Positions 26,738 to 63,180 of a stretch of DNA of 64,000 bases are shown here, in pieces. The stretch comes from Crossaster papposus (taxonomy: Eukaryota; Echinodermata; Asteroidea; Velatida; Solasteridae), in assembly GCA_037893245.1 (NCBI GenBank), contig JBAIAA010000531.1, positions 434,001-498,000 of the forward strand. Direction: 5' to 3'. Every line of letters begins with the position of its first letter. Position 1 is the first letter of the stretch. Both the position numbers and the translations under genes were made by a program. The notes below the pieces were generated by a model, which made no database searches, was not told the DNA's origin, and saw only the letters and a list, made by a program, of their open reading frames with translations.

Positions 26738-26983
26738 CTGAAAATAATAAAACGAAGCAACACTATAATAAATTACAATTCTGATATCTTCTCATGTTCA
26801 TCCCTCGTGTTTTTATTATTCATTTCACCTCGTACGACACCAAAAATAACCTGATAATTGGAAGATGTGATCTATTCTTGTTGGTTGAACTTGTTTACAT
26901 CAAGGAGAAAAATATTACATCATTCAGTGACACCACTGGTTGTTTTAATTGCATGAAGTTTCATCGATTGGATGAATACAGGT

Positions 26984-28405: not shown

Positions 28406-28699
28406 GCAAAATATTTTGTTATCTTAAAAATACTAATCAAACGAAAACATTAGTCTAAAAATATCTATTATTAAAAGAAGTTATGTGAAACGATGATTAC
28501 GAAATTAAAACCAAGATGTATAATAAACAATAGTACAATTTTACAAAAAGAAAAGTCTTAAGCAATAATATTTTTTTAAACCAAAAGAGATGAGACTGAA
28601 CAGACTGAATCTCATGCAACTTGTACATTGTTACATTTAATGGAAATAAAATTGTTGACGAAAATGTATACAAGGCTAAAAGTTAATAATGCCAAAAAG

Positions 28700-38700: not shown

Positions 38701-40387
38701 CCACAATCAGGTGTCCCAGATATTTCACTTGAGTTTTGAAGAAGTGACACTTTGGAAGTTTCAGCTTTAACCCGTGTTTTTGTAACCGCTGAAATACCAT
38801 TTCAAGACGCTGTAGGTGTTCCTCATAACTAGTAGAATATACTATAATGTCATCAAGGTATATCAGAAGACTCTGCAAGGCTTCATCACCAAAACATCGC
38901 TGCATCAGCCTCTGGAACGTGGCTGGACTATTGCATAGGCCGAAAGGCATACGGGTGTACTCCCACAACCCGAAAGGTGTTGTGAATGCTGTTTTTTCGA
39001 TGTCAGTCTCTTCCATGGCAACTTGGTAGAATCCAGATGTCAGATCCATGGTGCTGAAATAGTTTGCATCCCCAAGGGCCTGAAGAGACTCATTGATACG
39101 TGGCAAGGGAAATGCGTTCTTTGTCGTCAAACTATTAAGTCTCCTATAATCCACACACAAGCGAATTGAGTGGTCTTTTTTCCGCACCACAACAATTGGG
39201 GATGCCCATGGGCTTGAGCTCTCTCGAATGATCCCTTTGTCAAGCAGTTCATGGATGTGTGCCCTGACTTCTTGGTATTGAGATGGTGGGAGTGAACGGT
39301 ATCGCTGACTAATGGGGGAGGCATCACCTGTATCAATGCGGTGCCTTATAGTGTCGGTGTGGCCTAAGTCACCATCGTTCTTCGAGAATACGCTCTCATA
39401 CTTCTGGAGCAGTTGTTCGAATTTTGAAACTTCTTCATGTGAAAATTGATCTCCCAACTTCAGAGGATGCAGCAATGAGGGCGTAGCATTCTTGTCGGAT
39501 GTAGACACAGAAGCACAATTAACTGGGTTGTGCTTCATGTTGTTGTCGTGGGTTTCACCCTCTTGTGTAATGAGTTCTCCATTATATAGAGTCCCGATGC
39601 AGGTATGACCTGGTAGGAGAACATCTCGCTCTGTGTCGTTTGCTACGATGAAAGAGAACTTTCCCCCATGAACACTGACTAATGACCTATTAAGTTGGAT
39701 ACCATTGGGGAGGTTAGATGCCTCACCAGATTCCAATACTGCGACATACGCTGTGTTATCTGGACCCGGACTGGTTGAGGCTTGTAAAATTATCATCTGT
39801 TTGGCAGGGATTAATACAGCCGGTCCTCGAAGGAGATATGCTCTGCTAATCTGTTCTTTGTTTGATGTAAATTCTTCACGTTTCTGCACTGTCTGCATGG
39901 CCGTCTCCCACACTTTGTGATTGTTATGTGACTCAATCTTCTTCAGATGGGTCTGTCCCTGAGATGTCATCAATTTGCCCCAACATTCCTTTAGGACATT
40001 CATTCCGAGAATACCTGGTGCCATGGTTGATACCCGGGAGTCCGCAATGACAAGTACCACCCTGGATGGAATGGTGATGTCAAAAACTGAGATATCAGTT
40101 TCAAAGACACCCGTGTATGGTATGGAAGTGCCATTTGCTGATACCAGCTGAAAATACTCTGGTACGCTCGTCAGTTGTATACCATGTGGCTTGAAGTGAG
40201 TGATAAAGTAGTTGTCGGTTATAGTGGTCACCATAGAACCAGTGTCCAAAAGACAAGGCACCTGTTGTTCACCAAATGATGCGTTGACAGTAAAACAGTC
40301 AGCAGTTGCCTTGGACATAAATTCTGTCGTATTACAGTTAAGCGAGCCGTTACTTTTCCCCCTGGCTGTCTGGCTCGAAACAGACAA
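35705..40387 (-). CDS. pol: Gypsy 1 Pol polyprotein (PR-RT-RNase H-IN)
   Basis: 1,560 residues without a stop. Protease active site LLDTGS near residue 46; RT with SPIVVVRKKD, FATMDL-type FSTMDLTSGFYQ and YLDDIIVYS near 509; RNase H ETDASSKGLGAVLS near 667; integrase HHCC (about 930-975) and D-D-E at AMDF, HSDNGK and GQCERFN (about 1000-1095). The C-terminal tail has about eight 13-residue repeats (near 1365-1462). Its first codons are in the -1 frame relative to gag. The first in-frame start is TTG, and the open frame begins just upstream inside gag, so translation is probably by frameshift, not by a separate start. Confidence 0.97.
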   Translation of the reverse strand: MSVSSQTARGKSNGSLNCNTTEFMSKATADCFTVNASFGEQQVPCLLDTGSMVTTITDNYFITHFKPHGIQLTSVPEYFQLVSANGTSIPYTGVFETDISVFDITIPSRVVLVIADSRVSTMAPGILGMNVLKECWGKLMTSQGQTHLKKIESHNNHKVWETAMQTVQKREEFTSNKEQISRAYLLRGPAVLIPAKQMIILQASTSPGPDNTAYVAVLESGEASNLPNGIQLNRSLVSVHGGKFSFIVANDTERDVLLPGHTCIGTLYNGELITQEGETHDNNMKHNPVNCASVSTSDKNATPSLLHPLKLGDQFSHEEVSKFEQLLQKYESVFSKNDGDLGHTDTIRHRIDTGDASPISQRYRSLPPSQYQEVRAHIHELLDKGIIRESSSPWASPIVVVRKKDHSIRLCVDYRRLNSLTTKNAFPLPRINESLQALGDANYFSTMDLTSGFYQVAMEETDIEKTAFTTPFGLWEYTRMPFGLCNSPATFQRLMQRCFGDEALQSLLIYLDDIIVYSTSYEEHLQRLEMVFQRLQKHGLKLKLPKCHFFKTQVKYLGHLIVAKEGVEPDPEKIAVVKEWPVPTTVTDLRSFLGFTGFFRKFIHRYSSITAPLLKYLKGTSRKGKIKDGQRRIELDEAAHLAIQSLKSKLIEAPVLRFADFSLPFTVETDASSKGLGAVLSQKQRDGTKSVIAYASRSLRPAEKNDKNYSAFKLELLGVRWAVCQAFRDYLFGNKCIILTDHNPLKYLDTANLSAAEMRWVQQLSAFDFKLEYRPGRTNQAPDALSRLHTRPADAALISQSTPDAELSSCTIRALCGPVDVTTEFPPVLAHQIQVTTDEGSQSLPGYSAKMLRDLQDEDFILQRVIPYVKRQRRPSRQERQNEPGDVVSVLKHMNQLFFKNDALYRRSTLQGDGMCERLVVPARLHEEILTLFHDNAGHFGAKRTLKLIQPLFYWQRMEVSVHTWCHQCERCSVSRCPTRATRPPLGTLRATAPLEVVAMDFTVLEQSSDGYENVLVLTDIFTKYTWAIPTKDQRAKTVAKMLVKHLIIPFGAPLRLHSDNGKCFLAQVVQELCTLYGIGQSHTTPYHPQGNGQCERFNRTLHNLLVALPTHKKSRWTDSIPHLVTVYNNTKHSTTGYEPFYLMFGRNARLPQHLVLGVDRSQLSGVSAGSFAKKHCENLDKARALAITNLDKKVELRNSAFEKDVFERPLCTGEFVLVRDRSHRGRAKIQDYWETDPYMVVNQPFKGQPVYVVRNSTGRQKVLHRCELKHCPWDARLPTIPSTEDENTTDGVTSSSTSDDNWGVTLTLPKEQPHSYAPVPAPATHNPEFAMPSDSEDTGVKSNLAGKKCVAVEPPCAIVTQQRMEDEPLAAVPALSPSDEPLAAVPALSPSDEPLVAVPALSPSDEPLVAVPALSPSDEPLVAVPALSPSDEPLVAVPALSPSDEPLVAVPALSSSDEPLAADRILCAPGENIILRTAHDISSVEEAQMSPTDTTESAETTTEATAATGVSRKARRSNRTTKGKPPSRYQFSNVVRLLTQVKNMMAATAEMDLSSSDTD
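35998..36295 (-). repeat. 39-bp coding minisatellite in the pol tail
   Basis: About eight units encoding SDEPLVAVPALSP with small variants (A/V at one site). Confidence 0.95.
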
Positions 40388-40402
40388 GGGAGCTAGTTTC
40401 CC
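40341..40402 (-). promoter_or_regulatory. Predicted -1 ribosomal frameshift signal (gag-pol)
   Basis: Slippery heptamer G GGA AAC at 40402-40396, in gag frame and directly before the gag stop TAG. Slippage by -1 joins exactly the open pol frame (CTA GCT CCC). After a 9-base spacer, TGTCTG pairs with CAGACA (6 bp), and CGAGC in its loop pairs with GCTCG downstream, forming an H-type pseudoknot. Confidence 0.85.
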
Positions 40403-41607
40403 ATCTCATTCTTACGACTCTGGGTGAATTGTTGGCCTGGGTATGACTGTTGGGGAGGTGTTGGGTATGTCGGGTGAACATTTCTGGGCTGGCGGCGAGG
40501 TGCCGGGCAATTGCGAGCAAAGTGCCCCAATTGGTCACAGTTATAACACCTGGGTGGGGATGGAGATTGGGGTCCGTTCTGCCAATGTTGGGGTCCATTC
40601 TGCCGATGTTGGGTTCCACTCATCAAGACCTCTTGTGCGAACTTGTTACTGGGATATGGGCTATTCTGATGACTGGTGATGGAATTTAGCTTCTCCATGA
40701 CTTGCTTCATCTGGTCCTCCAAACGAGTGACTGGGTTATCTTCTCGAATTTGTAGAGCAGATGCACTTCCACGGGGTGTCATCTGATGATGAGCTTGTTC
40801 GCGTTCATCTCTCTTCACTGCCCAGTTCTTCAGCTCGCAGAATGTAATCTCGGAAGTGCGGTCAAGGAGGTCCCTGCATGAGTGACGCAGTCCCTCTGTC
40901 TCGATCCCATCCACAAATTGTTCCTTGATAATTGTGTCTGGGGTCTTGTACAGGCCCGGATCCTTTTTCTGCAATCGATGAAAGAGTCTCTCCAAGTCAA
41001 TAGCATACTGGCGGATCGACTCACCTTGGCGTTGTCGGCGTTGCAAGAACTGGCGTTGTAACTCCCCACTCGTAAGTGGCTCTCCGTATGAGGACTGAAG
41101 ATACTCCAAACAATCCTGGGCGCTTTTCCCACCAGAGAGGAGGGACCTTACTTCGATCTTCGGGCCGCCACGCAGGTAATCTAGCAAAAACTGCCCCTTC
41201 TGGTCGAATGGCACGTTGTATCGCTGGAATGCGCTTGTTATTGACGATACAAATTCTTCCACTGTAACAGATTTTACAGAGGAATCATCCCTGCCTTCGA
41301 AAGTGTGAAGCTTCCGATCAGGTGCCATCACGACATGTGTGAGACTGGGGGCCGTTGAAGGAGATGTCTGTGGTTTTTGTTCCCTGACAACGACAGAGTA
41401 AACATGGTCCCCCCAGCCGTCCTCAGGGGATAGAATCATGTTGTCCACCCTGTGTAGCACCACTTCCTCCCCGTCCTCATCGATGTAAGTGATGCCTATG
41501 GCACCCTCGAAGTAGTCCTCGAGTGCCTGTAGCGGGAGCTTTCCTTTCCGGAGAGGAAACCGAAGAGACTTTCCACCATCCTTGCTGACTTTTACAGTAG
41601 TACTCAT
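40393..41607 (-). CDS. gag: Gypsy 1 Gag
   Basis: 404 residues, ATG at 41607. The N-terminal ~75 residues (LRFPLRKGKLPLQALEDYF) look like a small PB1/ubiquitin-like fold. The middle (about 120-290) is a capsid-type helical domain with FLLDYLRGG and RQGESIRQYAIDLERLFHRL. A CCHC knuckle, CYNCDQLGHFARNC, lies near residue 355, then a Gln/Pro tail. It would assemble particles around element RNA. Confidence 0.95.
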   Translation of the reverse strand: MSTTVKVSKDGGKSLRFPLRKGKLPLQALEDYFEGAIGITYIDEDGEEVVLHRVDNMILSPEDGWGDHVYSVVVREQKPQTSPSTAPSLTHVVMAPDRKLHTFEGRDDSSVKSVTVEEFVSSITSAFQRYNVPFDQKGQFLLDYLRGGPKIEVRSLLSGGKSAQDCLEYLQSSYGEPLTSGELQRQFLQRRQRQGESIRQYAIDLERLFHRLQKKDPGLYKTPDTIIKEQFVDGIETEGLRHSCRDLLDRTSEITFCELKNWAVKRDEREQAHHQMTPRGSASALQIREDNPVTRLEDQMKQVMEKLNSITSHQNSPYPSNKFAQEVLMSGTQHRQNGPQHWQNGPQSPSPPRCYNCDQLGHFARNCPAPRRQPRNVHPTYPTPPQQSYPGQQFTQSRKNEMGN

Positions 41608-41710
41608 TTCAACAGCTTATTTTCACAAGACCTGCAGCACACAGGACTAGACAAACTTTGATACCACTCAATGCTTACATCACTCTTGTTGTTTTGAAAT
41701 TACAGCAGTC

Positions 41711-46029: not shown

Positions 46030-46739
46030 TTTTAGTGAGGTGGATTAAGGAAAAAATCGTTACACGGTGGACAAAAGCACAATTTTTTCACCAAAGTATC
46101 AGTTTGACCCATATATTTCAAAAAGGTCATGCTCCAAAAAATCTGAGAATTGTTAACCTTGAATTACGTCATTATGACGTCATAACCTCTTGTTATGTAA
46201 TAAAGCAAACGCAAATGCCATGGTGGGATTTCTACATGCCAAAATTATGTTTCTGAGGTCAAGGAATTCAATGAGGGTGGTATTAGTTTGTAAAAGATTA
46301 ATATCCTTTATGGTGATTACATGTATATTGATGTAAATATGACGTCATCATCGTCAATACTACACAAATAACACAAAATTTGAAAAAAAACCAGATTTTA
46401 TTGCCGTTTTTTCACCAAAATGCTATTTTTTTTTTGTTCAAAATGGTAACAGTATAATTACCGTGGCACTGATCTACAAGATACCATGATGTCATTATGA
46501 TATAATAAACAATAACTATCAACCAAAACAATAACACATTAACACAATGAAACACAATGATTCTGACCGGATATAGGTTATGACAGGATATTTATTATAT
46601 TGAAAAGCGCATATAACAGTTGGTTTGTGTAGACGAGGGATTATAGTGTGTTACCATTTATTTAACTGCATCTTACAGTTACAGTTATTAGGTTTTTTTT
46701 TACAGTTTATTACTATTAACCACCTACTTAAAGGGGCAG

Positions 46740-46936
46740 GATCGTCGCTCAAAAAATTGGCGTTCAACAAAGCCAGCTACAACGTCAGACAAGCTAAACG
46801 AATCCTTAATAAATACACTGGTCTACTGGGCCCCAACTACGGCGTTAACATCTCTATCACCAACAACCCTAAGCTAAAACAGTTGTTTTGTACCAGCCGC
46901 ACACTGCACAGGAAGATTGCTAACTTCAAAGTATAA
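46740..46936 (+). CDS. Unknown small frame in TIR element A
   Basis: Basic C-terminal-like frame (ASYNVRQAKRILNKYTGLLG, RTLHRKIANFKV) ending TAA, directly before the tandem array. No family recognised; it may be chance. Confidence 0.25.
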
Positions 46937-46987
46937 TATTAATATAAAAACAAAAATATAATAAAACAAAACAAATCCTCCGACTAT

Positions 46988-47453
46988 CACAAGTTTGTGA
47001 CGCGTAATTCCTTCTCAAAAATATTCCCCGAGAGCCACTGGTATTGGACGCGTAATTTCTTCTTAATAATATCATCCAAAAGCCACTGGTTGGTAGATAC
47101 GTAATTCCTTCTTAAAAATACCCTCAGACAGCCACAGGTTTGTGGACGCGTAATTCCTTCTTAGAAATATCCTCCAAGAACCACAGGTTGGTGAACGCGT
47201 GGTTCCCTCTTTAAAATATCCTCAGACAGCCACAGGTTTGTGGACGCGTAATTCCTTCTTAGAAATATTATCCAAGAGCCACTGGTTAGTGGACGCGAAA
47301 TTCCTTCTTTAAAATATCCTTCAAGAACCACAGGTTTGTGGACACGTATACCTTCTTAAAAATATTCTTCAAGAGCCACAGGTTTGTGGACGCGTAATTC
47401 CCTTCTAAAAATATATTCAAAGAGCCACTGGTTAGTGGACGCGTAATTCCTTC
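46988..47453. repeat. 49-bp tandem array (about 10 units)
   Basis: Units start CCACAGGTTTGTGGACGCGT or CCACTGGTTAGTGGACGCG and run through AATTCCTTCTT. Starts at 47035, 47083, 47132, 47181, 47230, 47279, 47328, 47376 and 47425: period 48-49. Each start is a short palindrome (CCAC...GTGG). Confidence 0.95.
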
Positions 47454-47900
47454 AGACATCTAAGAAACCAACAAAGAACTTCCAGTAGTTAGAACTGAAC
47501 ACGAAGGTAGGAAACAGCTCAACCATGGTTAGGAGGTGGAAGGTTAGGCTAGGTTAGTTGTGGCACTAGGTAAATGCTGGCCCATGTAACAATGTCAAGA
47601 TATGAACCGCAAACCGATTGTGTAGAGGCACGCAAGCACTGATGCTTCCTCGGCCAATGAAAACAAAACATGACGGGATTCGAAACATGGAGAAAAAAGA
47701 GGTGAAAAAAACAAATGTTCACTTTGTAAAGTGATAATAATCCACCATTTTATTGTCTCAGTATTATACCAAATTAACTTGATGAATCTTTATCTGTGTC
47801 ATATTCATCGCAATTAATGTACAGCTTTTGTTCGTGCGTATAACATAGCCTAGATGCCTAGTTTTGAATTTCTGTGATAAGACTGCATAATTATTAGAAA

Positions 47901-48368
47901 TCAAGAGTAAATCATCTGAAAATAATTGCTTGACGATCTGCTTGACACACTCAGCATTGAATCCCTAAAAAAAATCACTTTATTTGGCAAACGAGCCCTA
48001 AGACTCTCCACTCCACGGGCACTAAATTCATTGCCATGAAGAATAAGCCTCCCAGCACCATCTAAAGTGAAGTAGCGCATCAAGTCAGGGATGTCATCAT
48101 CATTCAGTCCACATGTATTTAACTGCAACGACAACCGAGGTGGAGCAAAGAGAGGCGCAACATCGGCAAAGTGGCCATGAAGGTTGGTATCGGACAAAGT
48201 TATGCTTTTCAAGTTACAACCCGTCAGTGCATTCCCTAGTCTCATGATGTCTTCAAACTTAAGTTTATGCAGGCAGACGTCTTTAATTTGCTTGCATACA
48301 TGAGGCAGGGACAAGGAGCGTAACACACGCTCATCTTCGAGGTCAGACATCTCATTAATCTGCAGTGT
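47901..48368 (-). CDS. Leucine-rich repeat protein (terminal exon?)
   Basis: Intact 149-codon frame from ATG at 48350 (MSDLEDERVLRSLSLPHV); an acceptor TTATATCTTACACTGCAG lies just upstream at 48369, so it may be a terminal exon. Repeats follow the ribonuclease-inhibitor pattern: NLKSITLSDTNLHG, LSLQLNTCGLNDDDIPDLM, RLILHGNEFSARGVESLRAR. This LRR type is common in NACHT-LRR immune receptors. No NACHT or signal peptide is present. It lies wholly inside TIR element A. Confidence 0.65.
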   Translation of the reverse strand, partial: TLQINEMSDLEDERVLRSLSLPHVCKQIKDVCLHKLKFEDIMRLGNALTGCNLKSITLSDTNLHGHFADVAPLFAPPRLSLQLNTCGLNDDDIPDLMRYFTLDGAGRLILHGNEFSARGVESLRARLPNKVIFFRDSMLSVSSRSSSNYFQMIYS

Positions 48369-49656
48369 AAGATATAATTGATCACGAGTCTGTAGACGCG
48401 TGTTTCCTTATAACATCATTTCGCCGACAGCCATTGCTGTACGGGCATGTATGCCTATATTAAAAAGATCACTTTTTACTCAATTAAATAACAACTTTCA
48501 ACTATATAACGGGCAGCTCTTCACTATGTGAGACGTGATGTTTAAGCTCTACCCATTTTAAGTTAAGTTTTTAAGTTACGCATACATATCGGTTAATGTT
48601 TTCATAATTTTCCGATAATTTACCACACGCCCTTATACATAAAATAAAATAAAATTCTTTAGTATTAAGTCTAAATTACACGATAAGTTTCTTATACAAT
48701 TCATTATTAAAGATTGATTTATGTCAATTAAAATACACATTGGTTATACACTATACTGTATAATTTTAATTCATTTCTTCATTTTTGAAACTCATCTTTT
48801 GAGTTTTTAATGTAAAAAGTGTATTATTACAGGCTCGAGAAATATCTGAACCATATCTGCTAACTTCCAAATTGAACACAATTGTTTATATCCTTAAACT
48901 ATTTAATTCATATTTTCTAATTTATTAATTTATTAAATATAATATTTTTAAAGAAAATGCGAATTAATACCGTAGTTCTTTCTAGAGAAACATAATTCCT
49001 TCACCTAATTGATTTAAAATATAGTTGTATCGAAATGTAATAAATTATAACCATAGAACTGTCCGTACTTCGCGTGCATTTTGAGTTCTTACTGTTTCCT
49101 CTATGTGTGATCTCTGTGTCTTTTAACTACCTATCCCCTCGTGCCGGGTTTGACATTACTGGATCTTTTATAACCGGTCGTCAAGTCCACCAACAGGCAC
49201 ATTCCCGAACGGTTTTTAAATCCCACTTTCTTCCACGGCGACTGTCTGAACGTCTGGCGTATCATGAGGTACGTTAGGGACTGTAGTTGGACTTTAGGTT
49301 CACTATACAACAACACAACCATGAGCTGAAATTGAAACATGTTAAAATATTTAAATACAAACCACTGATTTTCCCACGGTGATGATGAGGTATTTTATAC
49401 CATCATATGCTAATATAGACAAATTTAATACAAAAATGATGAAACTGTTTGTTTCAGCGCAACACAAACGTTGCCATGCGATTCCTTGGCCTTTGATACA
49501 TATAATTCGTTACTAAAATCACTTGCCTCGGTATTATATAACTAAAAACATGCCGTTTTAAGGAAATGGCGGCCATTTTTAATATATTACGTCATAATTA
49601 GGTCAAGGTCATTGCAATTTTTTTGGAGCATGGGATTTTATTAATCTACATACCCA
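48369..49656. other. Interior of TIR element A, no clear gene
   Basis: AT-rich. A weak plus-strand frame at 49100-49277 (SFITGRQVHQQAHSRTVFKS) is not recognised. Confidence 0.4.
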
Positions 49657-49740
49657 TAGGAGTCTTTAAAAAAAAAATGGTGCTTTTGTCCACCGTGTCA
49701 CGATCTTCGTGTTTTTTTTCCTTAATCCACCTCACTATTT

Positions 49741-50611
49741 GGAGAAAGTGCAAGGTCTGTTGCTTGTACGATCTTTACAACGGTGGCAAAAATGTCGGCA
49801 GCAGTTGGGGTGGCAGGTGGTGTCGTTGGTGAGAGCCGGCATGACCTGCTTGGTACCGAATGAGTCCTTGTGGTATCATCACCTCACAAAAATGTTTATA
49901 GGTGCAGGTTGGAGGAAAATTAGACACATGTGCCTTCTGAAGGAGCTTCGAAAGACACAAACGAAAAAAAAAGAAGTAATTAATCACTTTTGGTGACAAG
50001 GTGCCTGAATTGTTCAACCTAGCTTTTGACTATTGCCAATGTCTATGTAAAAATCCAATTCAAGTAGCACACAGCACAAAAACATACAACCTTAACACAT
50101 ACAAGTCATTCCATGCATGTCGATTCAGCATGATTTTAAACCTGACCCTTATTTTTTTTTCACAAGGAAAGCCTTATATATACTGTATATGCACACATTT
50201 TTAACTAAAAATTACCAAAACACTTCGTTTGGGGGTTTCTCATATATGTGTGCAAATAAAATCATCTATTATCATTTCAATCTGTTAGGCTCAGATAAAA
50301 AAAATGTTGAATTGACACGGATTTACCCATGCTGGCTGAAGTTAGTGACATGCAGTAGGAAGTGAGGTCTTGATGATTAATACACACAATGTATAATTTG
50401 GTCTTATACCCGAAATCAAAGCCTACAATGTCTCAAAAAATATTTCAGTTACAAAAAATACCACGATGGTTTACCCATCCCCATTGGTTAAAGGCATGTA
50501 ATGTGGGTGCTCTAATTTTTTTAATTTTTTTTGTATGAAAAGGTTACTTAAATTTAGGATACGACCGGTAGTTTAAACCAAGCGCGATTGCACCCTGCCA
50601 TTCTGCACTTG
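49741..50611. other. 3' flank of the P-loop gene, exon-like patch
   Basis: On the minus strand a strong acceptor near 49950 (CTTTCGAAGCTCCTTCAG) precedes a 53-codon open stretch ending TAA near 49775 (KAHVSNFPPTCTYKHFCEVM). It may be an exon or chance. The rest shows nothing. Confidence 0.35.
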
Positions 50612-50683
50612 CTATAACGTTGTTTTTACTAAACACTTTGCAATCATATTTACATATTCAGTCACAAAGAGCAGCGTGGCATA
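50612..50683 (-). pseudogene. Displaced C-terminus of the P-loop gene
   Basis: Reading minus from the target site at 50683: TAT GCC ACG CTG CTC and on for 22 further codons to a TAG at 50612-50614, in exact frame with the last codons before TIR element B (53675). It encodes a hydrophobic helix-like tail (ATLLFVTEYVNMIAKCLV). Separated from its gene by 3 kb. Confidence 0.65.
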
Positions 50684-51299
50684 TAGACCATGGGACGTAG
50701 TCACAAAATCCTTTCAGAAAGACATTTTCGTGATCCCCAACTTGGTACATGATAACACTTTCACAAATTGATCTTTAGGGCATACCTAACAACATTTGGG
50801 GTGTTCATTTTTGCAAAAGTGGCACTTTGGAGAGTTATTTCACGTAAAAAAATTGATGGGGCGAAAATAACATGGGGCGAGTTGATTTTTCTCGCCTAGT
50901 TTTCATAACATGTACATACATGGTTTCTTAGGTCAAAATGTTTATTCCTTATGATAAAGTCTTTATTCTTGTGTTTATTATCCCAAATATTGTACACACT
51001 TTACATGACTTCATGTATTATTTAAATACTCATGGTAGTTTATTTGTATTTTTATTTCAGCAAAACCTTCTACTTCAAACTTCCGTACGTCTAGTACCCC
51101 AGTCTACTTCTATCCAACAGCTGAGCCATAATTTCTGCATGTACCAGTACCATTGTGAACCTTTCCATCAATAAATCTATAAATGTTGGAACAAACAAAT
51201 CAGACAGCATAAGAAGTGTGATTGTACTATGGGACCCATCAATTCAACCCAGCTGTAGCTGTAGTGGGCTACATGCACCATTTGCAAATAATAATTACA

Positions 51300-51880
51300 T
51301 TTAAATTTGTGTAAATGCCTATTTGAGTACCATATTTTCTCAGTAAGAGGGATATTCATACTCCATCATGGATGTTTCGGTATGTAGCTCTAATAAGTTT
51401 TAACTAGGTTACACTTTTCAATTAGAAAAGCCTTGAAAATAGTTGCCCTCATTGGAACAGGGATAGTGGAAGTTAACTGAATGAAAAATGTCAGAAAAAT
51501 GCTCCTGACTTGTCTTAAATATTTAGTAATTTAGTACACAAAAACCAGTTCCAGCATAATTCTCTCAGCTTTTTCCTCTAAAATTAAGAATTATAACAAT
51601 CACAAAATCACTGAAGTGAGCACATGAATGTTACAATTATTCACAACCCATGAGATTTTGGGCAGATAATGCACATAGCCGGTACGACATGCTTTTAATG
51701 TTGGGGCTTAGATAGTAGGCTGGCACTGGATCTGAGTAAACACAAGTCTTCTTTAGATGTCTGTCATTATCACTGCTCGTCTCCTGATTAGCAACTGCAT
51801 ATAAGGTTAAATCTAGAGAGAGAAAAAAAGGGAAAAATACAATCAATGATGGAATTTGGAAATGACTTGTTACAAGAAAA
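51300..51880. repeat. Dispersed ~600-bp repeat, copy 2
   Basis: Collinear with 22490-23085. It sits inside TIR element B, so the copy at 22.5 kb is probably a fragment of a related element. Confidence 0.75.
51637..51812 (-). pseudogene. Terminal-exon-like frame in TIR element B
   Basis: Acceptor CTTTTTTTCTCTCTCTAG, open to TAA at 51637-51639 (YAVANQETSSDNDRHLKK). One inserted base relative to the 22.8-kb copy changes the frame. Confidence 0.4.
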
Positions 51881-51962
51881 GAAATTTAGTTCGTCACTTG
51901 TCCCTATTTTCTTTTCTTTTTAAATGTTCTACACAAAAATATGAAGCCAAAGTTGCACACGC

Positions 51963-51988
51963 TCCCCCCCCCCCCCCCCCCCCCCCCA
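51963..51988. repeat. Poly-C run
   Basis: About 25 C; a second run of about 19 lies at 52146-52164. Confidence 0.95.
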
Positions 51989-52607
51989 CAAAAAAATTAA
52001 TTGAAATAAAATTTCTTTAGTTGAACGAAATTTTTACGATTTGAAATGCAAACTTGCCGTACAATGGATTTTCCTGAGATACCGGTATGGTCTTATTTGT
52101 AACCTTGTACAAACAAAACATTGCTCACACCTAATGTTTTCTCAACCCCCCCCCCCCCCCCCCCACCCTTATAAAAAGGGGATAAAAAATAGGTGTTTAC
52201 ATGTACTTAGCCAGAGCTGGCTAAATTTATTTGACATAAACGAGATTTGACGAGCTACATGTATGAGTAGCTAAGTTGTCGTGAATCCAACAATTTCATG
52301 TATTAAATTAGCACGCGGAGTTCCTGTAGGCTGTGTCCGGATTACTTGGCAGCGGCTTGAAATTATGCAGGAGTCTATGGTAGCAGCTACAACCACATTT
52401 TATAGACTCGTGCATAACGTCAAACTGCAGCCAGAAGGCAAAATAGCGGCCAACGTTCATGCTGGATATAGAAAAAAATTCGCGTGAAAAAAGATATCCA
52501 TTTTAAAAATGAATTGTAACCTCGAGTTGAATGACAATCTTTTGACTTTTTGTATTGTATTATTACAGTTCTCTTCCTCTTTGGTCAATATCAAATATGT
52601 TTTGTAT

Positions 52608-52678
52608 GTGCTGTCGGTGCTGTGCGTGTTGTCGGTTATTAGTATGACCCCCGACAACATGCACAGCACCGACAACAC
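52608..52678. repeat. 71-bp hairpin
   Basis: 28-base arms GTGCTGTCGGTGCTGTGCG... and ...GCACAGCACCGACAACAC with about two mismatches and a ~15-base loop. Inside TIR element B. Confidence 0.9.
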
Positions 52679-52936
52679 ATTCATTCCATAACATATTCTA
52701 CATTGACAAATGACAAAAGAAAGAGTTACAGAACTATAATAACATAAAGCGTGTTCGAATGTGTGGCCCCGTATATAAGGTCAATATCATAGTTAAGAGA
52801 TGGCCTGTTGGCGTAAATGTCATTTAACTAAGAGCATCAGAATCTTTTTCGGAACCACAAACAAACACTGAGGTGTTATAAGCTTCACCCTGAACGAAGT
52901 CTGAAGTCTAGGCCTGAACGTTACTGCAACACCTAC

Positions 52937-53257
52937 CGGTTCCAACGATTTTCCTTTGTCGTTTCTCTTGGACAACTGTGACTTGCTCTATCTTATTGAT
53001 GTCCGTAAACCGGGCGTAGCAAGATCGATAAAATCCAACATGTTTCGGTGGTCCGCCTGCCGATGCTAAACCCATCCGCTCTCTGCAATGCGGAGTCATG
53101 TTTGGCCAGTAATTCTCTCGCTATATCTGACTGTTTTCCCTTCAAACTCTTCCATTTGTCAGCAAACTCGAGGAAGCGAGACCCTGCCTTTGGCTCCAGA
53201 ATCACAGTGCAAAATGCACATAAATAAAGGCTCGGCGTCGTCTTTAGAAGCCGCCAT
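52937..53257 (-). pseudogene. First-exon-like zinc/cysteine protein in TIR element B, frameshifted
   Basis: ATG at 53257 (MAASKDD), with open pieces in three frames: CAFCTVILEPKAGSRFLEFA, DKWKSLKGKQSDIARELLAK, then GPPKHVGFYRSCYARFTDI to a GTAGGT donor. The C-x2-C start and H/Y-x3-CY-x2-F end resemble an uncharacterised zinc-binding first exon seen in many invertebrate proteins (from memory, low certainty). Confidence 0.5.
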
Positions 53258-54931
53258 GTTGGATTGCTGTACACCGCGGGCCAGAAACTGTGCGTAACGA
53301 GAGCGCTGATTGGATGCCGACGGAGATTCACAACACAGTATTTTCGATTGGTCACAATTTAGGTTTAGTCACGTGAGTGCCGTTTTGTTAAATGAAACTT
53401 TGTTTCAGTTTTGGCTTCAGTTATGCAGTTTGGCAATAACGCTGGAGCCACGTACGGGCCAAAGCCTAGGTTCATGTAACGGCAAGTTTTGTAAAAAAAA
53501 AAAATATCGGTCCATATTTTCGCCAAAAATACACTAAAAGTGCCACTTTTGCAAAAATGAACAGTCATTTTTGTATTTAGCAACAACAACTTGAATGAAC
53601 TTCGATGTTTTCATTTTGTACCAAAATGGGGATCACGAACGAACACAATAATCGCACTCGTCCCATGGTCTAATATGTCAGGAAGAGGCGGTCTTCTATC
53701 TCAACCGTCTGGCAGGCTTTCTGGATAATTGTTTTGTAGCGGGTCATTATCAGTGCCTTGTCCTTGATCTGTCTTCCAACAGACAGTAATACAGGCAGGG
53801 CATGGGTTGCTACCTCTTCAAGCTCTACACGGTGTAACTCGGCACGGGTCTCACCAGCACCTCTTCTCTCATATTTAAGAAAAGGGACAATGACAGCCCT
53901 AGACATGGCCCTTGCATAGAAACAAAACAAATGTGACAAAATTAAAACTTCATGACTGTAATGATCGAGGAACCAAACTTTGTATTCATGTATACTGAAT
54001 GATTCTCCTAGTAAGTAGGTCACCTTTAAAATCACCACTACATGCAAGTTTTCTCAATTAGTATGCAATGACTTAAGTTTGATTTAAATTGAAGTACAAG
54101 TTTATAAATGAGACTACATTTATAATTCCAACCTCTTGTATAACTCGACCTCAAATGAATTTTGACCTCAGTACTTGACCTTTGATATATATATTTGTTT
54201 CATTAACAAATAAATAGAAAACAAATTACCAACAATTAGAATAAAAGCAAAAATACCTTGAATTTCCTGCCACCCGGTCCAAATAAAACCAATTTGCCGT
54301 TATGATGGGGCAGGTCAGCGGCTCAGATTCAGCAGAGCAGGTTGCATCTGACCCTCCATTGAAATAGCGGGTCAAGAGGTTCTCTAAACCACCTGCATCG
54401 GCATCATCCAAAATTGGGGGAAACGACGTGTAAGCTGTGTGGCGATGAAGAAACCGGTCTCTGGCGAATCCTAGAAGCCGTTCACTCTGCCCCATTATTC
54501 TAGCCGCCATCCGAGATGCGGTTGTTTTGCCTGTGATAAATGATTAACGATAAATTTGATACAATGATTATTGTCTGCAAGGTAATTTTTTAGTAAATTT
54601 TAAATGTGTAGTATACGTAACCCCATTAAATTGCCATGTGATGTAAAGTTAACCCAACACCCCCTTTTGTATAAATTACCTTATTCCCAACGAACCGACG
54701 GAGTTAATATGCAACTACCGGTAGCTACCGAAAACAAAGGCATATGTATTCTGCTGTAATGCATTTTCAGATGACTATCTCAGTCTTTTTTAAAATTTTG
54801 TTTAACATGCCTACCAAAAAATACTGTTTGTACTTTCATACAAGTACCTGTGTTTACATCCCCGATGACGATTGGAACAGGGCAGCACTTGAAGACACTT
54901 AGCATCTCTTCATAGTGCATGGCTAAGCATG

Positions 54932-55711
54932 TGTAGCCCAGAAAATTGGTCCGCTTACAAAACTTAAAAGAAAAAGAATTTAGTCGTGGGGATACTCGCT
55001 AATTAAAAGTCTGTACCAGGTATCTTTAGTGAAAAGGCGCGAGGAGATAATATTTAGGAGATAAAGACAGTGATTTTAGTTCCGCACAAATTACAAAAAA
55101 AATATTTATTTGTCACTCTAAAACTTAACACTTAACATGCGGTCTATAGGACTACACTTAAAAATAAGCAAGAATAAATCAAAATGTCAGATAACCAGGT
55201 TCACAAAAAATAATAATTGAGATGATTTTTGTAATGGAACTGGAAAAAAAGGAATTTATTCGAAGAAGAAAAAAAAGCTTTTGGCTAAATATAAAAAAAT
55301 CAACTTAACGAAAGAATCAGAAACTAAATTTATGAAAACCAACACAGCATTAAAGCAGGTCACAAGAAAACAACAGCTTAAACAACCGAACCAAGCGACA
55401 GACCTAACTTTCAGGGCAGGAAATTAGTGAAAATGAAGTCAAACTGAGGTACATGTACGTGTGTCCTCTTCTCTGCCAGTCTGCAAACTGAAGCTGGGAC
55501 CACATGGTCTGACCACAAGATCCTAGACAGGGACTGTTTATCTAACACAGGGGGTCACACTACCTGTTACCCTGTCAATACCAGACTTAATGCATGGACC
55601 AGACACATGTCAACAGGTCAAATTAAACTTCTAGAAACAAATATACACGGGGGTGGAACTCCTATAACAAACAAAACCAAATTAATTCAAGTGATAAGTG
55701 CCCCTGTTACA
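54932..55711 (-). repeat. Gypsy 2 3' LTR
   Basis: 780 bp. The minus-strand purine stretch GAGGTGGCGAGAG at 55712-55724 directly precedes it (polypurine tract). Confidence 0.95.
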
Positions 55712-55822
55712 CTCTCGCCACCTCAAATTATTGCTATCCCTAGCAATGGGGTAAACATAATGCCAGATCTTCTAAACTAAATACGTGTTTAACTTATAGC
55801 TATACATTGTAGTCAGAAACCT

Positions 55823-57358
55823 TCACTGCCAGTCTCCAAATCGTCTTGGTGGGCGGACTTGTCTCCTTGGACGTTGGTGGACCACCACCGGTGAACTCCT
55901 TCCAGAGTTGGGCGAACTGTCGGTGAATGCTTGTGACTCGTCATCCGAGCTGTCGCTGGAAAACTCCGATATCCCAGAGGCCATGGGGCTGTCGCCCGAA
56001 AGCGCTGTCCAGGGCTCTGGATCACGAAATCCTTCAGGTGGTGGAGAATGAAGTTGAGGCACTTCACTGGCCTCTTGGAACTTCATCGGGGGTGAGGGAA
56101 AGTACGGCTGCAGGTCAACATCAGCCTCTTCAGACTGCGGTGCTGGCGGAAGTAGATCAGCTAGTGACATGTCGTCCACGTCAAATGGGCAGATAGTCAG
56201 TAGATTCCGATGCAAGGTCCTCGACTTTGCGGAGCCGTACTGCTGTACGACATACACAGGTAGGTCTCCCAGCTTCCGTAAGACAGTGTAGGGTATCTCT
56301 TCCCACTTGTTCCTGAGCTTGCCTTTACCTCATACTGACTTGTTGGCGACTAGGACCTGATCTCCAGGGTGTAGAGTGTCTTCCTGCACCTTCTGGTTGT
56401 ATGTGGAACTTTGTTTCTGCTGGGCCTTTTGTGTAGCATTCTGGACCTTCTCCCGTACAACTTGAAGGTGTTTCTCCAATTGTTGGATGTAGGAGGACTG
56501 GGGCCGGACTCCTTCCTTCTGTTGCCTGCGTGGGGTTATGACGTCCACTGGTAGCCTCGGCTCCCTCAGGAACATCAAATAGAAAGGGGGATAACCTGTC
56601 GTCTCATGTTGTGAGCTGTTGTATGCGTACGTCATCGTTTGCAGGTACATCGCCCAGTTGATCTTTTGATGAGGCTCGAGGGTCCCCAACATGGACAAAA
56701 GAGTACGGTTGAATCGCTCTGTTATCCCGTTCCCCTGCGGATGATAAGGTGACGTCCTGCTTTTCTGGATACCCAGGAGGCGGCACAGTTCTTGTATCAC
56801 GGCTGATTCAAAACACCTTCCCTGGTCCGAGTGGATGCGCTCTGGAATGCCGTAGTTTCTGCAGAACTTCTCCCACAGGACACGAGCTACGGTTGTTGCT
56901 GTTTCATCCCTTGTTGCATACGCTTGAGCATACCTGGTGTAATGGTCTGTTACTACCAGGACATGCTCAAACCCGCCTTTTGACCTCTCGAGTGACAGAA
57001 AATCCAAACATACCAGCTCCAACGGTCGGGTTGTCTGTATACTGTGGAGTTTGGCATGTCTTCGTGTGTCTGGAAGCTTTCTCAAAGCACATCTTTTACA
57101 CTTTCTGACGTACTCTTTTGTCTCGGAGTGAAGACCTGGCCAGAAGTATCGGTCCTGTACTAGATGTACCGTCTTCTCGAAACCCAGGTGACCCATTTCA
57201 TCATGAAGGTGTTTCAAGACTTCACGTCTCTGCGTTCTGGGCAAAACAGGGAGCAATTTTTCTCCTTGGTCTGTCTTCCAGCTGTATAGCAACAGTTGAT
57301 CGTTGGGTGCGGGCATAAAACTTGGCCTCGGGGGACAGGCCACACTTCTCCTCCCCAT
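55823..57358 (-). pseudogene. Gypsy 2 integrase and Pol tail, one in-frame TGA
   Basis: Integrase HHCC zinc segment (HLHDEMGHLGF, CKRCALRKL), D-D-E core at CLDFLSL, HSDQGRCF and NGITERFNRT, chromodomain-less tail rich in Ser/Pro/acidic residues ending RRQVRPPRRFGDWQ. One in-frame TGA at 56330-56332 follows VLVANKSV; the frame continues unchanged after it, consistent with a CGA to TGA change. Confidence 0.9.
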
Positions 57359-57851
57359 ACTCTTCTAATAGCTCCGTAAAGGCAGCTTCGGCATTCAGGC
57401 TGCCCGCTGCGCGGCTCTCTAGATTGAGCAGCAAATCTCGTGCCCTTCCACTGGTGTAGCGAACGACTTCATGGAATTGCAGAGGCTCTGGTGTCTCTTT
57501 TGCGTTCAGCAGGTAGCGCATGTCTCTAATCCAGTCCTGGATGCGTGGACCGTTGCGCTCCCTCCCTGTGAACATTGACACAGTCTTCGCTTGATGTGTG
57601 GCAAACATCCTGGGGTTGGTCGGTTGTTGTTGTGGTGGTGGTGGTGGTGGTGGGGGCTTGGAGGCATTGACTGGATCAAAACCCGCTAGGTTTAGAGGAG
57701 ACGACTCCATGGGCGGACAGGGTTGGACTGGATGATGTTGTGAGTGATGGAAATTGGGCGATTGACCGATTCCGTTGTATGTTTGGGGTGTCAGTTGCGG
57801 AGGGCCACCAGCCATAGAGGTGAATTGAAGCTGGTTCGGTGTCTGCGCCAT
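57350..57851 (-). pseudogene. Gypsy 2 Gag, truncated
   Basis: ATG at 57851 (MAQTPNQLQFTSMAGG), Pro-rich stretch, then capsid-like FTGRERNGPRIQDWIRDMRY and AFTELLEEYGEE. After this the frame enters integrase DNA in the wrong frame. The zinc-knuckle part is lost. Confidence 0.85.
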
Positions 57852-57974
57852 TGCAGTCAAAACGTTTCCCACTAATAACACTGTGTTGGTTTTCCTATTT
57901 AAATCCTATCCTTATTTCCCAAATAAAACTCCTAGCTAAGTTATTATATATTTTATAACAGACTCCACTGCCCG

Positions 57975-57999
57975 GATTCTCCACCAAAAAGAGTAAAAA
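57975..57999 (-). other. Gypsy 2 candidate primer-binding site
   Basis: Minus strand after the 5' LTR: 13 bases, then TGGTGGAGAATCCGGG, which has the TGG start expected for pairing with a tRNA CCA end. The tRNA was not identified and the spacing is long. Confidence 0.4.
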
Positions 58000-58779
58000 T
58001 GTAGCCCAGAAAATTGGTCCGCTTACAAAACTTAAAAGAAAAATAATTTAGTCGTGGGGATACTCACTAATTAAAAGTCTGTACCAGGTATCTTTAGTGA
58101 AAAGGCGCGAGGAGATAATATTTAGGAGATAAAGACAGTGATTTTAGTTCCGCACAAATTACAAAAAAAATATTTATTTGTCACTCTAAAACTTAACACT
58201 TAACATGCGGTCTATAGGACTACACTTAAAAATAAGCAAGAATAAATCAAAATGTCAGATAACCAGGTTCACAAAAAATAATAATTGAGATGATTTTTGT
58301 AATGGAACTGGAAAAAAAGGAATTTATTCGAAGAAGAGAAAAAAGCTTTTGGCTAAATATAAAAAAATCAACTTAACGAAAGAATCAGAAACTAAATTTA
58401 TGAAAACCAACACAGCATTAAAGCAGGTCACAAGAAAACAACAGCTAAAACAACCGAACCAAGCGACAGACCTAACTTTCAGGGCAGGAAATTAGTGAAA
58501 ATGAAGTCAAACTGAGGTACATGTACGTGTGTCCTCTTCTCTGCCAGTCTGCAAACTGAAGCTGGGACCACATGGTCTGACCACAAGATCCTAGACAGGG
58601 ACTGTTTATCTAACACAGGGGGTCACACTACCTGTTACCCTGTCAATACCAGACTTAATGCATGGACCAGACACATGTCAACAGGTCAAATTAAACTTCT
58701 AGAAACAAATATACACGGGGGTGGAACTCCTATAACAAACAAAACCAAATTAATTCAAGTGATAAGTGCCCCTGTTACA
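58000..58779 (-). repeat. Gypsy 2 5' LTR
   Basis: 780 bp, about four differences from 54932-55711. Confidence 0.95.
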
Positions 58780-58789
58780 CATGCACAGC

Positions 58790-59351
58790 CTGGATTATTA
58801 TCAAGAAAGGAATGAAGCAACGGTTAAATTGCGTCTACATGTACCGTACATAGATTCGGCAATTACTGTTACAAATATCATCCACTTGTTCAGGTCGCAG
58901 ACATGGTTTTAAAATATAAATTTTGACATCACTAGAACACAATTATAGTGCTTCAAATCAAGGAGATTAAAACTTAGTAGCACCAAGCCGAGCATGAACC
59001 TAATCACATAAAATCCTTCAAAATATATCCTCACATATTTTAATTTTTTTGCAGACTATGTCTAGATATGAGCTTGGATATAAGAAAACAGTCGATTATG
59101 AAGGACTTGGTTTAAAAGGCCTGAAGCAGTGCTGGAGTCAATGATGAATTTTGCCTAAGAACCATAACTGTTTATGCCATATAAGACAAGTACATCAACA
59201 TCAATTTGGTGGATCCATTAACCTATCTATTTAAAGAAAATAGACTAGTGGATTTTGGCAGATTTGGTCTAGTTTCTAGCCAGAAGAACTAGAGACTTTT
59301 TGTGTCAAGGGTTGATCATTAAATAATGTCTATACAACAAAACTGACATAC
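58790..59351. other. Intron between exons C and D of the P-loop gene
   Basis: GTATGT donor at its minus-strand start, AATAATCCAG acceptor at its end. Nothing else recognised. Confidence 0.6.
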
Positions 59352-60517
59352 CAATTACAAAGAATGCTGAAACTGCATTCTCATGAAGCGTGTCGGCCAG
59401 TGAAATGTAGATGTCATGCAACATTTGTTCGGGGTTGACAGTTCCAAAGTTATCTGGAATCTTTAGCTGCTTAGCTCCCTTTGGGCAAAATTTGGTCCAC
59501 CCAGACGAACTTATATGTTGGTTCTGCTGGATGATGGAACCTTCTCCGTCAAGTTGTACATTTGGCGCTACAACCCACGTGTCTGTCCCAGTTTGTTTGC
59601 CAACCGAGGTTGCCGCAAGAGATTGGGGCTGGAGTACCTTCCTCGGAGCATCGCCTGAAAAGCAACCATGGTTGTATTTGCTAAAGTTTTAATAATTGAA
59701 CACAGCTTATTCTGCCATATAAACAAATAGAAAATTGATCTGCAGCATAATAGAAAAGCGAAATACATCATGGGCCTGGACGCGTTGATGCATATGGTGC
59801 CTGGACTCGTTAATGCACAATGGTGCCTATCCGGCTAAATCGTTGGAATTACAAAATGTTTTGGTTCATGAGCCAGCACACAGCCTAGCAGTTTTAAATA
59901 TTTTGATCCCCATTCATAAATACTTATTGAAAAAAAAATCAAAACCACTGTCCGCCGATATCCCCAAAATAATACAATCAACATATTACAGGTAATTAAT
60001 ATTGTTGCTCCGATTGGCTGGTGCGCGGGTCGTACAGATTTTTCAAATGTCTGCGGTACGTACAGAAGTTGCGGCTCAGCATAATGTCCGACCATTTGAC
60101 TTAACATTTACAGACTTACCGTGAATAGTTTTCTATTTCCTGAAGGAAAAATGCATTCACTAGCTCTGAAGTGAGGGTATGGATCAATCCACCAGATCCA
60201 TGACTGGAGTCCAAAAGAGTGACGTAGCTCCTTGTTGAATCTATCCAGGGTGGAACTAATGGAATTCTGTGATAAGAAGCAGTTCCTAGATGTACACAAA
60301 TTACAAAAACAAATCTTTAACGAATGTCACAAATTTAATATAAAAAGTAAGAGAACCACACAACATAATTCGTTGCTGTACATACACCTTTAACACGACT
60401 GTACTGCGAATCGTTACCACAGCTATGCATGAACATCGTGCACGCCATGCCCCACCGCGCTCTACTGGTGTTTTGAGTTTGTACATTTGGTACGAGTTTG
60501 TCACTGCCAATGATCAT

Positions 60518-61784
60518 GGCGTCGCATGGTGAACATGGCGTTCCAATCGTTGCAGTACGTCCAGACACCAGCCATGAATTTAGGATTATATGTTTAAAAG
60601 AAACAATGCAAGTATGTGTACTTTGTTTTTGACATTTAATTTCCATCTTAATTTGTTTAACTTGCATTGATCATCGGCAACATGAATAACATTGCTAGTA
60701 GTACTCAGTGCAGCACACATGAACAATGTTATATAAAACATGCGCATCAACATTTAACAAAAAATGTTGACAAGTACTACTTTGGGGGGAGGGTCTTTAA
60801 AAGTAGTAGGCCTACTCTCTGTGCGACTTTAAAAATGTTGAAAACTTTGAACAGCCCCTTACAAAGCACCTATTGCGAACAATGGATTGAGAAGACATCA
60901 TACAACTACAATCATATAACATGCGTGTCATAACGGTTAACTGATTGCACGATTTTGATCAAATTAAAAAAAAATTGGCAACATTTGCAGTCCCACACCG
61001 TCTTTTTGTGGGACCAATACAATAGTGGAACATAAATACTGTAACGGGTGAGGGAGTGCCCGTTCAGAGAATGACGATGTACGGCCACCGTACAATACTT
61101 ACGGCTGGTCTGATCTGGCGGACGTCTGCAGGAACTTCACTAATCGTCAGAGGGCGCACTTCAAACGAGATCGGTCACAGCCAGAAGATCGGGGATGGGC
61201 GTGGTTTTGGAAAAGGGGAGGGGGTGAAAGTCTTGAACCAGTCTAACTAACTCTGTGGAAACTGGGGAAGGGGAGGGGTGTAGGTAGCCCAGGCTCACCA
61301 GGAAGATTCCACCGTCGTCAATCAAATGAGAAGAATTAATCCAGTCTACTAATTAATAGACCTAATGCGCAGGCGCGCGCATTAAAAACAGACTAAATAG
61401 AGTAATTCACTCGAGGAAACAGCTTTTATAATTCAAGAACTCGAACGCAACAAATAATTTATTAACAGTAGCGCTAAATGCAACTCTATTCACAGTAATT
61501 ATTATTTACACTAATTATTCGCTTACAGTGAGTAAATCATAGTTGGTTTCACTGTTCAGTACGTGTGACTCATAAAATATACGCCGCAGCTAACAGTCTT
61601 GTAATTCTGACTGCAAGCTACACAAAATATTAATTAATATGCGCACAATTAATAGCTCAAGCACAAAAGCTCGCCGATGGCTTCGCAGTTGCACGCAACG
61701 CTAGCATGCACTGAATAACTTCGCAGGAGTACCGATACGTTGCTTCAGCACTTGCTATAGCTGAAGTTCTACCGTTGACTTTTA
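60518..61784. other. Upstream region of the P-loop gene
   Basis: The open frame of exon A extends upstream of its ATG without an acceptor. A short hairpin GTCCCACA...TGTGGGAC lies at 60991-61014. No other gene seen. Confidence 0.4.
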
Positions 61785-62010
61785 TTCACGGCACTTCTTT
61801 GCCGACTATTCTTGCTGTACAGACTATTCTTCACGGCACTTCTTTGCCGACTATTCTTGCTGTACTATTCTTCACGGCACTTCTTTGCCGACTTTAAGCT
61901 GTAATCTTCACGGCACTTCTTTGCCGACTGTTCTTGTAGCGCGCGGACTCGATAGAACCGAGCCGACTGTTGTATGTAGCGCGCGGACTCGATAGAACCG
62001 AGCCGAACCA
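61785..62010. repeat. Hairpin-forming tandem repeats
   Basis: Four copies of TTCACGGCACTTCTTTGCCG followed by ACT (each can fold CGGCA-loop-TGCCG), then two copies of GTAGCGCGCGGACTCGATAG plus AACCGAGCCGA 40 bp apart. A TATATAG box-like sequence follows at 62031. Confidence 0.9.
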
Positions 62011-62039
62011 AATGCTGGAAATGCTCGACTTATATAGTT

Positions 62040-63180
62040 TTCTGGCAGTGCAGAACTAGGTCACCGACCATACGCGCACTACAATTGGCTGAACGCGCGC
62101 CGCGTATGCAAATGAGTCACTCACACTGATCAGCGATTGCCATTGAAATGTACAGTACTTGTTTTACGTACAAAGCCTATTACATGTAGTTGCTATACGT
62201 GTATGTACAGTTACAGTACACAAACGATAAGCAATGCCTACTTACACATTCTGCTATGAACCAGTTGTGCTATGTTAAACCACTGTCGCTAGAATCTGTA
62301 ATAAATAAACAACTCTAAGGAAGTTAGTCATCATTGTCAGATAATTAAATGCTTTCTAGAAGTTCTAAATTCATCAACGATGTGCCATACATTCCTATGA
62401 ACACTTGTAGTTGTAAGTACAATCGATGCTAGGAAAATTGTGTATTAAACAAAAGAGGGAACATTTGCTGTTGGCATTTCTACATTATATATGGTAGACT
62501 CGGACTGAATAAAACATTCAAGGAATTTTGTAGAGGCAGAGCGATTTTTGTCACAATACCTTGCCCATGCTAAGTGTTAAATTTCTATTTCAAATAGCGG
62601 TTTTAGTGATTGTGTGCATTTTCTATTATGGAAAAAGAAATTGGCCTGTAGTACAGTTGCGGTGGAAATCACAATTTTATGACACTGGCCATCAGGTCCT
62701 ACCTCGTGATGTTTGAGAGTGCGCAGGTAACTTCAATGATGAATCCAGTTCGAGTGCCAGCGTCAATTACTCTTTCGATGCTCATTGTAAATGCTGCTAC
62801 CTCACGTTTTGTGGTCTTGTTGCCACTTCAATTCGTTTCACAAGATATGTCCTGTTTTTCTCTGTTTCAAAGGTTCTTCCTGTGGGAGAAGCCAATCGAA
62901 CAAATATTTTAAAAGAGTACATTCGCAGTTTCGAGGGTTATTTTGATTAGCCTTAGTTATTCTTGGTTTTTTCTGATAGCTAATAAAATCGTTATACACC
63001 TGACCATTAAATTAAGAGGCTAGCGAAATCAATTCTCAGTTTATTTAATAACATTTGTTTCTGGTTGCTTTTTTTTTTAAAGGAACAAAAAGAAACAGAA
63101 CCTTAACACCTAATATTTAGAGCTCTAAACACTTTTTTTTGCAACAGATTTAAGGGGGAAATTTAATACGATCACAAGTT
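62040..63180. other. No gene seen
   Basis: AT-rich; no domain recognised on either strand. Confidence 0.4.

Follow-up and report, generated by a model that had tools for sequence, protein, structure and literature searches.

Helicases of superfamily 3 (SF3) are known mainly from viruses, phages and plasmids and are characteristic of viruses and mobile elements; it would be unusual for an animal to have a cellular one. Their Walker B motif, which lies about 40 residues beyond the P-loop, consists of a hydrophobic run followed by an acidic pair. Closest to the ATPase family described here are the primase-helicases of the phage P4 alpha type, which share with it a co-linear arrangement of Walker A, Walker B, a GG, an Asn-containing motif C and R..IxPF over 128 columns. 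They differ in that identity to the family is about 18%, the family is eukaryotic and carries introns, its N- and C-terminal exons have no match, and it has neither a D5_N match nor a Pfam-recognised primase domain. The family came to attention through a gene in a 64,000-nucleotide stretch of the Crossaster papposus genome (GenBank assembly GCA_037893245.1, contig JBAIAA010000531.1, positions 434,001 to 498,000), referred to below as the window, in whose coordinates features are given. With a probability of roughly 0.7, we read this gene as a wrecked, recently dead pseudogene copy of an old, multi-copy, intron-bearing P-loop ATPase family with an SF3 helicase-like core. The window copy is in itself only a pseudogene; a selected, intron-bearing family with open members makes the possible domestication of a viral-type replicative helicase by animals directly testable.

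Structure of the window copy

When the window is compared with 16 further loci from its 1.02-Gb assembly (L009-L024, 10 kb per locus; partial members are left out of the counts, for instance C648, whose exons 7-8 are of the C343 type), the gene falls on the minus strand of contig C531, from 62879 to about 49753, and has at least eight exons. In the paralogue C343 (L009), eight exons of 172, 168, 299, 90, 274, 271, 201 and 307 bases are all preceded by AG and followed by GT (8 of 8), and the joined frame is open for 593 amino acids. C343 exon 1 starts in phase 1, so that an upstream exon precedes it, and the GT after exon 8 suggests a further exon downstream; searches beyond exons 1 and 8 turned up no convincing candidate for either, and the model is incomplete at both ends.

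In the window, exon 1 (62703-62879, encoding the N-terminal region; 96% DNA identity to its C343 counterpart, one gap), exon 2 (60120-60285; 98%, one gap) and exon 3 (59352-59654; 97%, three gaps) all lie on the minus strand, as do those that follow, and all contain small frame-breaking indels. The first 10 bases of exon 4 (58780-58789) are severed by a long terminal repeat (LTR) element from the remainder (54848-54927), which ends inside Walker A (GDVNT-G). Exon 5 (54257-54530; 98.5%) is open and encodes GKTT, PPILDDAD, FNGG and CPIITANW. Exon 6 is also in two parts, the first encoding SRAVIVPF (53673-53910; 95%, two in-frame gaps) and the second at 50654-50683 (100% over 31 bases). Exon 7 (49753-49945; 96%) has a further small frame-breaking indel and has lost its last bases to an insert, and exon 8 was not found within the window.

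This model departs in several places from a first-pass annotation made from the sequence letters, which had set the gene limits at 60517 and 53670 and had omitted the LTR element inside exon 4. Exon 1 lies further upstream, an insert has its edge at 53673, and the rest of exon 6 and exon 7 lie at 50683-50654 and 49945-49753. The interval 60517-60386, taken then as an exon, is part of intron 1: in the three open paralogues described below, exons 1 and 2 join in phase with this interval left out, and it falls within a stretch not alignable to the C343 intron, though intron 1 of C959 contains the greater part of it. The Trp-rich peptide WIWWIDPYPHF is a shifted reading of exon 2 that follows a window indel, and in the other frame the motif HT-x8-FFL-x-E-[IV]-E is conserved at this position in C343, C182, C58, C217 and C136. 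Similarly, ISSSGWTKFC in exon 3 comes from a shifted frame, where other members read [KET][FY]xW[VI]D.

The element inside exon 4 is 3.85 kb long (54932-58779, minus strand), with LTRs of 780 bp at 54932-55711 and 58000-58779 that differ by 4 mismatches, and is flanked by a duplicated CATG (54928-54931 and 58780-58783). Its 2.3-kb interior contains an integrase adjoining a gag-like open reading frame (ORF), a label given by position since there is no convincing Pfam match, and from the integrase the element would be Ty3/gypsy-like. No reverse transcriptase is present in the two ORFs scanned, and the element may therefore move with help. The insert that divides exon 6 (50684-53672; 2,989 bp) has 14-bp terminal inverted repeats (TAGACCATGGGACG) and a 3-bp ATA duplication, and is missing from both C343 and C959; an ORF inside it (52993-53358) has no Pfam match. 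Exon 7 is cut by a 3.7-kb insert (46031-49752) with inverted-repeat-like ends (TAGTGAGGTGGATTAAGG), and intron 1 holds an insert at 61040-62555 with TGTAAC...GTCACA ends and an ATAC duplication, missing from C343, that appears to be solo-LTR-like. The LTR and inverted-repeat pairs at the window copy belong to these inserts, and the idea that the copy itself is an element bounded by repeats was therefore rejected.

Window and C343 are 88-97% identical by block, exons and introns alike, with the long blocks that surround exons 2-6 at 92-93%. Over 476 comparable codons there are 15 synonymous and 11 non-synonymous differences, a ratio of the non-synonymous to the synonymous proportion (pN/pS) of 0.23, which suggests that the window copy was constrained for much of its history. 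The corresponding value for C959 and C343 is 0.35 (490 codons; 8 synonymous and 9 non-synonymous differences). A point that tells against the pseudogene assignment is that some of the small indels could be sequencing errors, among them two in exon 3 that fall in single-base runs; this applies to neither of the two coding-exon inserts.

Paralogues and processed copies in the assembly

At a threshold of E 0.001, the 118-residue core gave at least 27 exon-wise matches in the assembly, with the window itself counted in; at E 0.01, the 588-residue C182 protein gave at least 76 exon matches. Homologues with the same exon order exist within this genome, and the family is multi-copy. All eight exons are open at three of the 16 other loci (C343, C182 and C58; 588-596 amino acids modelled), with 588 amino acids for C182 and 596 for C58, in which the end of exon 7 is approximate. 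Seven are intron-bearing but broken or incomplete (L011, L015, L017, L018, L020, L023 and L024), and at five (L012, L014, L016, L019 and L021) the copy is processed and its exons meet where junctions are predicted. Junctions 4, 5 and 6 are spanned in all five of these and junction 3 in two. L022 is probably processed too; one protein match there crosses junction 4, and the DNA comparison showed no junction spanned.

The processed copies are natural records of a spliced transcript, and show that at least one member of the family was once transcribed and spliced. They also bear out the earlier observation that Walker A is split by an intron (54847-54531, minus strand; phase 1 in the Gly codon, GT-AG): this intron is missing from the processed copies and, because exons 4 and 5 are joined in all five, it is really spliced. 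Since stop codons are common to them and their flanks are partly common, the five loci may stem from a single retrotransposition event. They are copies of a C58-like member, and parts of exons 6-7 are repeated in L019 and L021.

Other occurrences of family sequence were seen for exon 8. A stretch of about 33-44 residues of C182 exon 8 is repeated at 80-93% identity in nine contigs (C886, C927, C162, C1192, C1249, C1260, C87, C1167 and C53), as if captured by a repeat. An exon-8-like domain at 7377-7815 of L035 (C886), with 49% identity to C182 and 74% to C217, lies in a different ORF context and is possibly another branch of the family or a captured exon.

Pairwise comparisons among C343, C182 and C58 give pS values of 0.851, 0.812 and 0.843 and pN values of 0.270, 0.330 and 0.325, over 586, 422 and 421 codons respectively (exons 1-6 only in the pairs with C58). 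The three open paralogues are under purifying selection, and because synonymous sites are saturated while pN is only 0.27-0.33, we conclude that the family is old and its protein conserved.

The number of copies, together with the presence of several young ones (the C217 pair is 96-99% identical, and the window, C343 and C959 mostly 87-97% by block) and the general association of SF3 helicases with viruses and mobile elements, would also fit a reading in which a DNA element that carries introns and is still mobile, either virus-like or a transposon, uses the ATPase as its replication protein and has inserted at these loci. We regard this as improbable, however. No convincing terminal inverted repeats were found around C17, C217, C343 or C136 (four of four checked, at most 22 kb each), nor were common terminal repeats or target-site duplications bounding the copies found at the four loci. 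The stretches common to copies differ in extent, and within one young group homology ends at differing places between members. A 1,189-residue ORF upstream of the C343 copy, which in a short part resembles Endonuclease_7 with a score under the curated cut-off (1,113 residues scanned), was the one ORF tested for recurrence and did not recur at the other fetched loci, most of which have short flanks. Furthermore, seven introns lie between the eight exons and the subfamilies are saturated at synonymous sites. In view of the lack of repeats, the varying ends of homology and the non-recurring ORF, the family looks like a host gene family that has spread by duplication with turnover.

The ATPase core and its probable relation to SF3

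The minus strand of the window encodes GDVNT-[intron]-GKTT, PPILDDAD, CPIITANW and SRAVIVPF, as the first-pass annotation had read it, and this order recurs in four aligned paralogue rows, far beyond chance. The Walker A consensus GxxxxGK[ST] is matched by GDVNTGKTT in the three rows that bear exon 4, and GKTT is present in all four (the C217 row is without exon 4). In all four rows the DD of Walker B (in the first row 40 residues downstream of the P-loop Lys) is invariant, as are the Asn of motif C ([IV][TS]ANW) and the Arg of M[ST]RAxIxPF, a putative Arg finger that aligns near R..IxPF of the P4 profile.

Using HHalign, the four-row family alignment was compared with a profile built from 13 phage P4-alpha-type primase-helicases, giving a probability of 76.7 (P 2.1e-5, 128 columns) and an alignment in which Walker A, the DD region of Walker B, the GG after it, the Asn motif and R..IxPF are co-linear. 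The probability was 62.7 when P4 and three close relatives were removed, and 0.2 in each of two reversed controls. Control profiles gave 0.7 for T4 gp41 and 8.4 for T4 gp44, and single-sequence controls 8.3 for gp41, 8.5 for gp44, 0.3 for UvsX and 0.1 for part of gp46. These comparisons support a relation of the family to SF3. The family is outside every SF3 family that the searched libraries define, and the view of it as a multi-exon P-loop ATPase with an SF3-matching motif order, lacking a convincing match in Pfam, NCBIfam, PHROGs or the PDB, is supported.

Several observations weigh against an SF3 assignment. The B' position is not invariably basic, with ESxP followed by L, R, K or R before CP (basic in three of four rows, placement uncertain). 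HHalign comparisons with the 13 SF3 sequences taken singly are weak (probability 0.1-23.2), so that the assignment rests on one profile comparison and the motif order, and the control profiles are shallower than the SF3 profile (gp44 rows near-identical, gp41 rows 59-100% identical). An AlphaFold model of exon 5 alone, from a single sequence, was uninformative (pLDDT, the predicted local confidence score, 49). Database searches with four members (C343, C182, C58 and C217) at E up to 10 returned no curated SF3 profile from Pfam, neither D5_N nor others. There was no Pfam match at all for C343 and C182, and C58 matched only AAA_22 (E 0.05) and an unrelated family (E 0.11); adding C217 gave the same two families, each in one of four members, with AAA_22 at E 0.05-0.11 across scans. 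NCBIfam had no match, and PHROGs only two nameless families, each in one member (E 0.041 and 0.38). The D5_N and DUF927 profiles found nothing in this assembly, and no confirmed relative was found in viral, phage and prokaryotic genome collections, where the viral and genome scans used two to six short peptide patterns each, which distant relatives can escape.

Other searches were similarly negative. The family profile had no match in the PDB, where the window copy gave only chance-level matches (E 0.98 to 1.9). Three queries of a protein database gave no match, which says little on animals as their coverage there is uncontrolled, and no description of such an ATPase family was found in the literature, judged by titles and the starts of abstracts.

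The absence of a curated SF3 match and the weak AAA_22 match in one member raise the possibility that this is a host AAA+ ATPase family unrelated to SF3, with the motif order reached by convergence. The AAA+ clamp loader T4 gp44 is alike in its P-loop and Walker B, but scores of only 8.4-8.5 for gp44, and 0.7-8.3 for the RecA-type gp41, are to be set against 76.7 for the SF3 profile, and the gp44 alignment stops near Walker B, whereas that with SF3 continues past it via the Asn motif to R..IxPF. Convergence is thus an unlikely explanation. The first-pass annotation had also offered a DUF927-type ATPase, and this does not stand up well. Its motif order agrees, and DUF927 ATPases (PF06048) have a single P-loop ATPase preceded by a region whose layout the region ahead of the P-loop here may resemble. 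However, in scans with the profile itself, PF06048 matched none of the four members at E up to 10 and nothing in the assembly (a control run found it in one of 14 known genomes), and we consider membership in this group quite improbable.

Returning to an SF3-like core, a plausible mechanism can be drawn from the motifs. Intact members would form a ring, probably hexameric, with ATP at each subunit interface. The Walker A Lys would bind ATP and the DD of Walker B would hydrolyse it, with the Asn of motif C sensing the nucleotide and the Arg of SRxxxxPF reaching the ATP of the neighbouring subunit. ATP use could then drive movement along, or remodelling of, DNA or RNA, and exons 1-3 and 7-8 would supply the target.

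From the kind of ATPase that it is, the likeliest origin of the family is possibly an ancient viral or mobile-element replication helicase. Put more fully, and tentatively, an SF3 replication helicase from a DNA virus or mobile element may have been taken up by an animal lineage in the distant past and have become an intron-rich host gene family, whose members continue to be selected, duplicated and lost. This would be a new SF3 family, absent from the searched profile libraries, with new N- and C-terminal domains; we think of this scenario as possible rather than probable. The earlier suggestion of a domesticated or undescribed element protein is neither shown nor refuted, with no terminal repeats at the four loci, no recurrence of the one ORF tested and no source outside the assembly in viral, phage, prokaryotic or protein collections.

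Other features of the window

The window also contains a long-open LTR-type element, whose Gag (40393-41616, minus strand) has a TDP-43 N-terminal-like domain (PF18694, E 6e-8) followed by a PNMA-type capsid and a zinc knuckle, and whose pol occupies 35705-40405 on the same strand. Among the best 8 of 5,716 literature matches there was no paper on this TDP-43-like Gag domain. A YqaJ-type recombinase ORF (PF09588, E 2e-17) lies at 7561-8325 on the minus strand, near a DDE transposase in two ORFs at 5228-6456 (HTH_Tnp_4 and DDE_Tnp_4). Finally, a long tandem array of RTRDNSYARQLV-like repeats extends over approximately 26950-28450, with several frames open on both strands.

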